From: Clostridia bacterium | GTDB taxonomy: Bacteria > Bacillota > Clostridia > Oscillospirales > QAKW01 | Length of the DNA stretch: 48,604 nucleotides | Reading direction: 5' to 3' | NCBI GenBank assembly: GCA_017560905.1 | Contig: JAFZEA010000005.1 | Coordinates: 1-48,604, forward strand | Shown here: in pieces, positions 45,603 to 48,500 of the stretch | Layout: each line of letters begins with the position of its first letter | Position numbering within the stretch: the stretch's first letter is position 1 | Position numbers and translations under genes: made by a program | Notes under the pieces: model-generated | Database searches by the model: none | Seen by the model: the letters and a program-made list of their open reading frames with translations, nothing else | Told to the model about the DNA's origin: nothing

Positions 45603-45884
45603 TTATGCTTGCTCCTCTTTCATCTTAGCGAAGCATTCGCTGCAATAAACAGGTCTGTCTTCGGTGGGTTTAAAGGGGACTTTGCACTCGGCACCGCAAG
45701 CAGCGCAAACTGCATCATACATAACGCGAGCGCTCTTGGCAGCAGCCTTTCTGGCATCTCTGCAATCTTTACATCTCTGGGGCTCGTTCTGGAAGCCCTT
45801 CTCGGCATAGAACTCCTGCTCACCGGCAGTGAAAATGAACTCTTTGCCACACTCTTTGCAAGTTAATGTCTTGTCTTCGTACAT
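45603..45884 (-). CDS. Small zinc-ribbon protein
   Basis: A 93-residue protein with two Cys-pair modules: CKEC with CKDC (about residues 9-42) and CAAC with CSEC (about 60-84), consistent with two small zinc sites. This resembles the zinc-ribbon-domain proteins common in Clostridia, whose function is unknown. GGAAGAGG lies upstream of the ATG. It follows the sigma-H-like gene on the same strand, separated by the tRNA-like element. Confidence 0.82.
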   Translation of the reverse strand: MYEDKTLTCKECGKEFIFTAGEQEFYAEKGFQNEPQRCKDCRDARKAAAKSARVMYDAVCAACGAECKVPFKPTEDRPVYCSECFAKMKEEQA

Positions 45885-45923
45885 TGGTTTACCTCTTCCT
45901 TTTCCTGGGAAAAAAATATTATT

Positions 45924-45976
45924 TACCCGATTGCGGAGTCGAACCGCACATTTCTGCTCACCGTGAGTTAACGGGC
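45924..45976 (-). ncRNA. tRNA-like element lacking an anticodon arm
   Basis: Read on the minus strand, 6 nt after the sigma gene stop: a 7-nt acceptor-like arm GCCCGTT; AA; a D-arm-like hairpin CTC-ACGGT-GAG with GG in its loop; 8 nt CAGAAATG; a perfect T-arm TGCGG-TTCGACT-CCGCA with a canonical 7-nt T-loop; the second acceptor arm ATCGGGT (6 of 7 positions pair, one G-U); and a discriminator-like A. No anticodon arm and no encoded CCA. A U-run follows after 9 nt. It could be a decayed tRNA or a functional tRNA mimic in the 3' untranslated region. Confidence 0.5.
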
Positions 45977-45982
45977 GTATGA

Positions 45983-46531
45983 CTATTGTAGCTTGCCGCG
46001 GATGCGTGTCAGCGCATTGTCAACGGCTTTGGCGTTGATGCCGAGCTTTTCGGCGATCTCCTTGTAGGAGTTTCCGTCTACAAAGAGGGAGAGAACACGA
46101 TGCTCTCTGTCGGTCAGTTTGTCCTCGATCTTCTCATATACTTCCACCAGACGCTCACGTCCCAATACAATATCCTCTGCGCTCATTTCCTTAAGCTCTG
46201 GCGCATCGGAAAGGGGAATGGAGGTGTTGAGGCTGGCGTTTTTTAAACGGCTGTCACGTTTGACGGCAGACAGCAGGGCGCGATGTATACAGATCTTGGC
46301 GTATTTAATGAAGTTGTCATTCTTCTCGGCCTCGTAGCTGCAGACAGCACCATAAAGACCGAGGCACCCTTCTTGAAACAGATCCTCACGGTCACCGCCG
46401 ATGAGAAAATAAGAAGAGGTGATCATGCGCAACAAGGGTGTGAAAAATTCGAGGATCTCGACGTATGCCGTCTGGTCTCCTGCTTTTGCACGAATCAGTA
46501 AATTTTGATCCAAAGAAACAGATTTTTCCAA
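45983..46531 (-). CDS. sigH: RNA polymerase sigma factor, SigH/Spo0H-like
   Basis: A 182-residue sigma-70-family factor. Region 2 is clear (GDREDLFQEGCLGLYGAV and NFIKYAKICIHRALLSAV), and region 4 is a helix-turn-helix with LTDREHRVLSLFVDGNSYKEIAEKLG and KAVDNALTRIRGKL. The pattern is that of Bacillus SigH, which directs early sporulation and stationary genes; whether this strain sporulates cannot be told. I start at TTG 46531 (AAAGG 8 nt ahead): the longer ATG frame from 46576 would begin inside the promoter. Confidence 0.87.
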   Translation of the reverse strand: MEKSVSLDQNLLIRAKAGDQTAYVEILEFFTPLLRMITSSYFLIGGDREDLFQEGCLGLYGAVCSYEAEKNDNFIKYAKICIHRALLSAVKRDSRLKNASLNTSIPLSDAPELKEMSAEDIVLGRERLVEVYEKIEDKLTDREHRVLSLFVDGNSYKEIAEKLGINAKAVDNALTRIRGKLQ

Positions 46532-46574
46532 ATTGCATACCTTTCTGTCCACAAACTCGACTTCATATGTATAC

Positions 46575-46603
46575 ATTGTACAATACTCTTTTCTTTAAGT
46601 CAA
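46575..46603 (-). promoter_or_regulatory. Promoter of the sigma-H-like gene
   Basis: On the minus strand, TTGACT (46603-46598) and TACAAT (46580-46575) are exactly 17 nt apart. The start site would be near 46568, about 37 nt upstream of the chosen TTG. It is divergent from the rpsT promoter. Confidence 0.8.
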
Positions 46604-46634: not shown

Positions 46635-46663
46635 TTGATTTTACGGTAAATTAATGATAAAAT
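46635..46663 (+). promoter_or_regulatory. Promoter of rpsT
   Basis: TTGATT (46635-46640) and TAAAAT (46658-46663) with 17-nt spacing. The words AATTAATGATAAAATAT occur twice in tandem here (about 46650-46665 and 46667-46682). The leader before the GTG is about 35 nt. Confidence 0.75.
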
Positions 46664-46704
46664 ATCAATTAATGATAAAATATTTACGAGGGAGGTGCAC
46701 TATC

Positions 46705-46968
46705 GTGCCGAATATCAAATCTGCTAAGAAGAGAGTTATCGTTACTGAGACCAAGACCATGATCAACAAAATGGCCAAGTCCGATTTGAGAACTATTCTT
46801 AAGAAATTCGATGCTGCTGTTGCAGCCGGTGATAAGGAAGCTGCTGCTGCCGCATACGCAGAGGCGGTTCATAAGATTGACAAAGCTGCCAGCAACAACC
46901 TGCTTCACAAAAATAACGCTGCTCGCAAGAAGAGCCAGCTGACCAAGAAGCTCAACGCTCTTGCCTAA
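46705..46968 (+). CDS. rpsT: Ribosomal protein S20 (bS20)
   Basis: An 87-residue basic protein binding 16S rRNA helix bundles. It starts from GTG as PNIKSAKKRVIVTETK and contains KAASNNLLHKNNAARKKSQL. GGGAGGTG (46690-46697) fits GTG 46705; the frame is open further upstream but those starts lie in the promoter. S20 genes with a weak start codon are often autoregulated in other bacteria, which is a possibility only. Confidence 0.95.
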   Translation: MPNIKSAKKRVIVTETKTMINKMAKSDLRTILKKFDAAVAAGDKEAAAAAYAEAVHKIDKAASNNLLHKNNAARKKSQLTKKLNALA

Positions 46969-47076: not shown

Positions 47077-47598
47077 ATGCAACGAAGGAAACAGAAACGA
47101 CATAGTACTGAGACAAAAATTCAAGCAGTACAAGAATATCTTGAAGGCAAAGGAAGTTTACAAACGATCAGCCAAAAATATGACATTGCAAGCAAAAGTC
47201 ATTTCAGAAGGATGGTGTTGTGGTATAATAGTCATAGATATTTTAAAGATTGCCCAGTAGGCAGAGGAGAAATATATATGGCTAAAGGAAGAAAAACCAC
47301 GCAGGAAGAACGAGCAGAAATAGTAGCATTTTGTATTGAACACAACAAGAATTATGGATTGGTAGTAGAGACATACAAAGTTTCATACCAACAAATCTAC
47401 AATTGGGTGCGTAAATACGAGGAAGGCGGAGTAGACAAACTCAAGGACAACCGAGGAAGAACGAAACCGGTTGAGGAAATGACCGAGGTTGAAAAACTCA
47501 AAGCTGAAATGAAAATACTTGAAGCGAAAAACAGACAGCTCGAAATTGAGAATGCCTTCATAAAAAAACTACAGGAGCTGAAAGGTGGTGGTCGCTGA
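47077..47598 (+). CDS. IS3-family transposase OrfA
   Basis: A 173-residue DNA-binding component, the same length as the IS150 OrfA. It has two helix-turn-helix units (about residues 12-50 and 68-115, the second with YKVSYQQIYNWVRKYEEGG) and a C-terminal coiled coil with Leu heptads (KLKAEMKILEAKNRQLEIE, about 144-162). In frame at 47562-47568 is A AAA AAA, a slippery site that would carry ribosomes into the orfB frame. The left hairpin ends 8 nt before the ATG, and a CTAAGGGGG stretch serves as ribosome binding site. Confidence 0.92.
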   Translation: MQRRKQKRHSTETKIQAVQEYLEGKGSLQTISQKYDIASKSHFRRMVLWYNSHRYFKDCPVGRGEIYMAKGRKTTQEERAEIVAFCIEHNKNYGLVVETYKVSYQQIYNWVRKYEEGGVDKLKDNRGRTKPVEEMTEVEKLKAEMKILEAKNRQLEIENAFIKKLQELKGGGR

Positions 47599-47651
47599 CC
47601 GGAGTACGACAAGAGCATATTTATATAGCGATTGAATTTCTTAACGTACAC

Positions 47652-48500
47652 ATGGGTTATTCCGTAAAAGAAATGTGTATTGCATTAAAATTAAACAGAT
47701 CTTCCTACTATAAATGGAAAAAGAGGAAACAAAGCAAAAGCGAGCTTTTAAACCTGCAAATAACGGAATATGTGAAAGATCTCTATGAAGAAAGCAACGG
47801 AGTTCTCGGATACAGACAGATGAGTATCGTAATTAACCGAGAGAAGATCGATGAGCTTCCTCACAGAGTTAACGTTAAGAGAGTTCGCCGTATTATGCGT
47901 ATTCTCGGACTCAAATCCGTCATTCGCAGAAAACGCCCGGACTATGTGAAATCCACGCCTGAAATTACCGCTGAGAACGTACTTAACAGAGATTTCAAGG
48001 CAACTGTTCCGTTTGAGAAGTGGCTTACCGATGTTACGGAGTTTAAGTATTATGTTGGACCTGAGGTGAAGAAACTGTATCTCTCTGCAATCCTCGACCT
48101 TTACGACAGGCGTATCATTGCATACAAGATCGGTGACAGCAACAACAACGAATTGGTTTTCACAACATTCGATGAAGCGACGAGTCTTTATCCTAATGCA
48201 AGACCAATCTTCCACAGCGACAGAGGATTTCAGTACACGAACAAACAATTTCATCAAAAACTCGTGGATGCCGGTATGATCCAAAGCATGTCCCGTGTCG
48301 GCAGGTGCCTTGACAATGCTCCGATGGAGGGCTGGTGGGGTATCTTAAAGTCCGAAATGTACTATCTTAAAAAGTTCACGAGCCGTGAAGCTCTTGTTTC
48401 CGCTATTGAGAATTACATACACTTTTACAACACTCGCCGCTACCAGAAACGTTTGAATTGCATGACTCCTTGCGAGTATTACTTCGCCAATGCCGCGTGA
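47652..48500 (+). CDS. IS3-family transposase OrfB (DDE integrase)
   Basis: The 282-residue catalytic part, again the IS150 length. An N-terminal HTH_21-like region (MGYSVKEMCIALKLNRSSYYKWKK, residues 1-24) precedes the rve core with the DDE triad: Asp in KWLTDVTEF, Asp in FHSDRGFQYT and Glu in GILKSEMYYL. The frame is open upstream without a stop to the slippery site at 47562, so the active product is most likely an OrfAB fusion made by -1 frameshifting; the ATG at 47652 is nominal. All catalytic residues are intact. Confidence 0.92.
   Translation: MGYSVKEMCIALKLNRSSYYKWKKRKQSKSELLNLQITEYVKDLYEESNGVLGYRQMSIVINREKIDELPHRVNVKRVRRIMRILGLKSVIRRKRPDYVKSTPEITAENVLNRDFKATVPFEKWLTDVTEFKYYVGPEVKKLYLSAILDLYDRRIIAYKIGDSNNNELVFTTFDEATSLYPNARPIFHSDRGFQYTNKQFHQKLVDAGMIQSMSRVGRCLDNAPMEGWWGILKSEMYYLKKFTSREALVSAIENYIHFYNTRRYQKRLNCMTPCEYYFANAA

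Follow-up and report, generated by a model that had tools for sequence, protein, structure and literature searches.

The locus

The stretch of DNA analysed here, 48,604 nucleotides (nt) of contig JAFZEA010000005.1 from a Clostridia bacterium of the Oscillospirales (the window), carries a 53-nt element resembling a transfer RNA (tRNA) between the gene for a sigH-type sigma factor and a small zinc-finger gene (zf). On the minus strand the row consists of the sigma gene (45983-46576), 6 nt, the element (45976 to 45924), 39 nt that include a Shine-Dalgarno sequence, and the zf gene (45603-45884). The element, which reads GCCCGTTAACTCACGGTGAGCAGAAATGTGCGGTTCGACTCCGCAATCGGGTA from 45976 to 45924, begins 6 nt past the TAG stop codon of the sigma gene; AAATAATATTTTTTT comes directly after it. 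The features of the locus are listed below.

45983..46576, minus strand: sigH-type sigma factor gene, 197 amino acids, upstream neighbour of the element; assigned by Sigma70_r2/r4_2 domains and synteny with sigH of the class
45977..45980, minus strand: leader of the element, A-4 U-3 A-2 C-1; the family consensus is AUAU, shared by the leaders of true tRNAs in two genomes of the order
45924..45976, minus strand: tRNA-like element in reduced form (acceptor, mini D-hairpin, T-arm and A73, without CCA), read as derived from tRNA-Thr(GGU)
45970..45976, minus strand: 5' acceptor strand GCCCGTT, with G1 at 45976
45957..45967, minus strand: remnant of the D-arm, CTCA-CGG-TGAG
45932..45948, minus strand: T-arm TGCGG-TTCGACT-CCGCA, with a canonical T-loop and a perfect stem of 5 base pairs (bp)
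45925..45931, minus strand: 3' acceptor strand ATCGGGT; from C61 to the partner of nt 1 is 12 nt, as in a tRNA
45924, minus strand: discriminator-like A73, followed by AAT, without CCA
45892..45899, minus strand: Shine-Dalgarno-like GGAAGAGG of the zf gene, from reading of the sequence
45603..45884, minus strand: zf gene, 93 amino acids, with domains PF13451 (zf_Tbcl) and PF23477 (zf_Tbcl_2); its leader carries the element

The top NCBIfam models for the sigma gene are those of SigH, with scores under the cut-offs of those models. Both domains of the zf protein are probably treble-clef zinc fingers; a search for its relatives in the PDB gave weak LIM-like matches, none of them informative. The D-like hairpin of the element has a loop of 3 nt (CGG), a real D-loop being longer, and is joined to the T-arm by an 8-nt connector. 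The minimum-energy fold matches that described in an earlier sequence-only reading of this DNA, and the fold energy is unremarkable (z -0.29; 75/200 shuffles were equally stable). ARAGORN and an Rfam search gave no match at the element locus, the tRNA model RF00005 did not match the window copy, and no Rfam cis-regulatory family matched either the window copy or the region of a related copy (L021). From the window alone the observation of a tRNA-like element is weak.

Conservation and structural selection

Stronger evidence came from comparing, for 130 zf orthologues of the same order, the preceding 300 nt. These regions share a common cloverleaf, (A)UAU-GCCC...-UA-GCUU...AGAGC-G-UUG..CAA-AGGU-..CGG-U..AA.U-CCG..-GGGC-AAA. 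A covariance model (R1) was built from a seed of 24 upstream regions, with the window left out, and its top match in the 48.6-kb window is at 45979-45921 (20.8 bits, E 1.3e-4). In a sister genome of the same genus the corresponding place holds a copy of 52 nt (19.0 bits). In 99 relatives all R1 matches above 46.1 bits lie between sigH and zf, with one in each genome, and those lower-scoring matches that were checked proved to be true tRNAs. This place carries an R1 match, of 42-81 bits, in 45 of the 99 genomes of the order. A covariance search downstream of sigH orthologues had been proposed in the sequence-only reading, with a lack of conservation next to sigH as the refuting outcome; the element proved to be conserved there, once per genome, in 17 of 26 families. 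Rfam contains no family for the element and tRNA finders miss it. No earlier description was found in targeted full-text searches of the open-access literature, which is not proof of absence.

Covariation was assessed in 87 element copies aligned to the model, with a clear slide control; counts of element features were made on sequences taken directly from the loci. Two-sided changes were seen in 13 of 19 pairs. The number of cells with such changes was 143 against 54.5 in shuffles, with none of 500 shuffles reaching the observed value, and the covariation score was 0.283 as against 0.037-0.102 for slid structures. Across families the acceptor appears as GCCC/GGGC, GACC/GGTC, ATCC/GGAT and GTCCC/GGGAC, and the anticodon stem as UUG/CAA, CUG/CAG, CCG/CGG, CAA/UUG and CGU/ACG. 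Compensatory changes in the acceptor and T stems, for which the sequence-only reading had proposed a test, were found in this comparison and also between the window and its sister genome, which differ by C-G to U-A in the acceptor and U-A to A-U in the T-stem. On this comparative evidence the element is genuine and did not arise as a fold by chance, because a model built from relatives finds the same place with strong compensatory change, and it is selected as a structure. The R1 matches and the covariation thereby bear out the earlier description of a tRNA-like, selected fold.

One copy (L184/L323, genome G200) has a long insertion at the position of the anticodon arm, giving a total of about 119 nt, and still scores 48 bits.

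Origin from a tRNA-Thr gene

Although built from elements, R1 matches true tRNAs at 35-51 bits, the best of them mostly tRNA-Thr(GGU), and the element is therefore taken to be tRNA-derived. The L021 copy scores 38.9 bits with RF00005 (gathering score 29), which points to a cloverleaf homologous to tRNA. In other families of the class the matched tRNA-Thr(GGU) lies directly after tRNA-Gly(CCC), and at one locus (L201) this pair lies directly 3' of sigH. Family f47, outside the order, has three loci (L200, L203 and L212) with the row sigH, intact tRNA-Gly(CCC) with CCA, degenerate tRNA-Thr-like element and zf, the degenerate element not being read as a normal tRNA by ARAGORN. Two further f47 loci (L197 and L198) have sigH, element and zf. 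From the presence of the element in this other family of the class it follows that its last common holder is older than the order. Of the 87 elements, 70 have Thr(GGU) as their nearest tRNA, a result that serves only to back the synteny as the tRNA set was enriched in Thr(GGU). Other tRNA-Thr(GGU) genes are present in the two genomes of the order that were checked, and this copy was therefore free to change.

By synteny, intermediates and sequence, then, the element is identified as an exapted tRNA-Thr(GGU) gene, and in the genus of the window the anticodon arm has been further lost. It shares with the tRNA-Thr(GGU) of the sigH locus of the class a homologous place, the acceptor GCCC..GGGC, U8A9GC, AGAGCG and the T-arm, but differs in having no usable anticodon arm and no CCA and, in many copies, no D-loop GG. 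The existence of the element and its tRNA-Thr origin are held with high confidence. They document, with intermediates, the passage of a tRNA gene to a cis-acting element of a messenger RNA (mRNA) in bacteria.

The window and its sister have lost the anticodon arm and several families have lost the tRNA shape, as could also be expected of a neutral relic, a dead tRNA gene in slow decay. This is extremely improbable, being already contradicted by compensatory change in three stems (acceptor, anticodon and T) of different families, which no shuffle equalled, and by a last common holder that predates the order. The sequence-only reading had offered a tRNA that lost its middle; its descent from a tRNA stands, whereas simple decay is at odds with presence in dozens of genomes and 17 families and with the compensatory changes. 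Likewise, a complete tRNA in this position, suggested there as a sign of decay, does occur in relatives at class level but reads as the ancestry of a conserved element and not as recent decay.

The f47 intermediates (L200, L203 and L212) would escape annotation. In several lineages (L136, L119, L078, L092 and L152) the whole element consists of a minihelix (GCCC..GGGC/U-A..) at the same place, and copies of family f14 such as L113 and L129 consist of acceptor plus T-arm only; these look like stepwise reduction or replacement.

Association with the zinc-finger gene

The element was first described as lying in the 3' region of the sigma gene. The position is correct but misleading, as the association, spacing and covariation show the element to be the 5' leader of the zf mRNA downstream. 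The spacing from the discriminator A73 to the zf AUG is tight (31.4 +/- 4.2 nt); that from the sigH stop to the start of the element varies widely in a crude calculation. At five loci (L259, L266, L316, L317 and L330) the element and zf occur together with no sigH in the upstream stretch of about 1.7-2.5 kb, and no case was seen of an element without zf. It is because of this tight spacing and of its persistence where sigH is missing that the element is assigned to zf, and the earlier idea of a function linked to sigH finds no support at the same loci.

Sequestration of the Shine-Dalgarno sequence by the element was rejected, as duplexes of the element with the Shine-Dalgarno region of its own genome were no stronger than swapped ones. 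A search for a conserved promoter just upstream of the element gave overall scores similar to those of shuffles, with good consensus boxes at some loci lacking sigH, and no terminator-like site was found at the element on the minus strand in a search for intrinsic terminators. An upstream open reading frame, AUG CCC NNG UAG, can be read in several copies but is not conserved, three copies (L104, L138 and L141) having no AUG, and was rejected.

A separate second hairpin (e.g. CAGG..CCUGUGCGCAAUAUAUU) is found just after the sigH stop in families f3, f7, f13, f14 and f16 (L126, L164, L106, L086, L091 and similar loci), at times alongside the tRNA-like element. Possible roles are protection of the 3' end of sigH or the marking of a ribonuclease site.

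Features kept from tRNA and a possible role for RNase P

The elements retain features of the acceptor, T-arm and leader, together with U8, A9 and the D stem. G1 is present in 86/87 copies, U54 in 86/87, A58 in 86/87 and U60 in 83/87, and the 3' strand of T-arm plus acceptor is 12 nt long in 50/86 copies, with a length of 11 nt in a further 28/86. The leader has A-4 in 68/87, U-3 in 69/87, A-2 in 80/87 and U-1 in 80/87. The same AUAU consensus is seen in the leaders of 69 true pre-tRNAs from two genomes of the order (37, 37, 49 and 54 at -4 to -1); upstream of -4 there is no signal in true tRNAs and only a mild A/T bias in elements. Decoding features are gone. The 5-bp anticodon stem and 7-nt loop with anticodon of a decoding tRNA are not present in the elements; the anticodon arm is absent from the window copy, and in most other copies has a stem of 2-4 bp and a variable loop; ARAGORN finds no regular arm of this kind. 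CCA follows none of the 87 elements as against 70/70 true tRNAs (genomes G070 and G003).

Ribonuclease P (RNase P) gauges its substrates by the stack of T-stem and acceptor (PMC4919913). Its leader preferences are strongest at N-1 to N-4, and it accepts substrates mimicking only the acceptor and T stems, with more miscleavage (PMC4919922). Cleavage before G1 is inferred because the kept features fit RNase P better than they fit either a simple hairpin or a protein-binding site. In the proposed mechanism RNase P would recognise the T-arm/acceptor stack together with the AUAU leader and cut before G1, which would separate zf from the sigH transcript or trim the leader of zf's own transcript. The resulting 5' end of the zf mRNA would be closed inside the acceptor stem and shielded from 5'-exonucleases. 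With CCA lost and no detectable RNase Z, the 3' side would be left uncut, so that the mRNA would retain the tRNA-like structure at its 5' end, much like a cap. The sequence-only reading had named a processing signal for RNase P or RNase Z; the RNase P part is the best-supported function, although we regard this mechanism for the zf leader as evenly balanced between true and false, and the RNase Z part is not supported, the enzyme model having no match in most of the genomes of the order that were searched.

RNase Z, with or without RNase P, might instead release the element as a small stable RNA, as mascRNA is released from MALAT1. RNase Z prefers CCA-less 3' ends, and the elements have such ends. 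However, the RNase Z model TIGR02651 had no match in 49/59 genomes of the order, including the complete element-bearing genomes G003, G019 and G041, while the same search was positive in 13/14 controls, and release of this kind is very unlikely.

Several observations weigh against processing by RNase P. Loss of CCA is the loss of an RNase P contact. The D-loop GG and the TTC of the T-loop, both needed for the tRNA elbow, occur together in only 10/87 copies, and they are often lost jointly (p = 9e-6 for the association, without correction for relatedness). In the acceptor, pair 5 does not form in 55/86 sequences and pair 6 in 42/86. The AUAU leader may in part be inherited. Several families have merely a short GC hairpin at the place of the element, the tRNA shape being dispensable there, and the absence of sigH upstream of zf in some genomes means that 'punctuation' between the two genes is not the sole role. 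The step of 3' protection is pure inference.

The short hairpins (for example GCCCG-TATT-CGGGTA in L136 and GCCCCCAAAGCGGGGC in L078) are what would be expected if any stable stem were to insulate or protect the zf mRNA, with the tRNA shape inherited and just the GCCC/GGGC stem of importance. Such a passive structure is unlikely: the T-loop, D-stem, U8/A9, strand lengths and leader have been kept in 17 families, beyond the needs of a stem, and the acceptor pairs are weaker than expected of a protective one. A tRNA core of U8, A9, A14, D stem and T-loop is retained beyond the hairpin, and this, with the fixed distance to the zf start and the association with zf and not with sigH, could suit a leader bound by the zf protein, or another tRNA-binding protein, that represses or stabilises its own message. 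Threonyl-tRNA synthetase binds its own operator and offers a comparison for such autogenous control, and a conserved treble-clef protein of unknown function could bind RNA. Against this, RNA binding by zf is hypothetical, no informative solved relative was found, a protein site would not need the pre-tRNA leader consensus, and element and Shine-Dalgarno region do not coevolve. Control by a protein is accordingly given a low probability, similar to that of the passive stem.

If RNase P does process the leader, the element would represent the first conserved bacterial family of cis-acting exapted tRNA genes, in which the tRNA-Thr gene at the sigH locus gave rise to a tRNA-shaped 5' cap, processed by RNase P, on the mRNA of a conserved zinc-finger protein. 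This cap would have been retained through an order of gut Clostridia, with reduction or replacement on repeated occasions. This full account is put forward tentatively, its chances being a little short of even. The natural variants (full, elbow-less, anticodon-less and minihelix) are material for a study of the in vivo requirements of RNase P, and the element offers an approach to a zinc-finger protein that is highly conserved and of unknown function.

Comparison with known systems

The nearest parallels are the t-elements of plant mitochondria, tRNA-like structures at mRNA ends that are cut by RNase P (PMC4919922). Here too a tRNA-derived or tRNA-like fold lies beside an mRNA, the end of which it is predicted to set through RNase P. 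As in t-elements, the T-arm is stacked on the acceptor at tRNA length (12 or 11 nt in 78/86; 12 in the window) and the leader context is shared with true pre-tRNAs (AUAU at -4 to -1, two genomes of the order). In contrast to t-elements the element is bacterial, occupies a single locus as the 5' leader of one gene, is kept through an order and is probably uncut on its 3' side, and its cut is a predicted one. The MALAT1 mascRNA and MEN-beta menRNA also use a tRNA-like fold for RNA end formation by RNase P, but are eukaryotic, lie at the 3' ends of long non-coding RNAs and are cut by RNase Z as well. The pseudo-tRNA tRNA(Other) of Bacillus cereus (PMC3399842) is likewise a bacterial tRNA-like molecule within a longer RNA and with a role outside translation; unlike the element it keeps a Trp anticodon, is found in few species and lies beside an island and not in a gene leader. 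RNase P also cuts non-tRNA transcripts at sites within operons and riboswitches of bacteria (cited in PMC4919922), as is proposed (and so far predicted) for the element, but that paper does not present these sites as conserved families derived from tRNA.

Other features of the window

The sigma gene has as its divergent neighbour a ribosomal protein S20-like gene (46654-46968, plus strand), beyond which a two-ORF (open reading frame) insertion sequence of the transposase orfA/orfB type (47077-48500, plus strand) lies at the contig end. From these neighbours it appears that sigH has moved here from its usual surroundings. Elsewhere the window contains a Gut-1 RNA (RF01706; 28183-28253, plus strand), a small RNA family of unknown function, and an S10-Clostridia ribosomal protein leader (RF03136; 12771-12887, plus strand).
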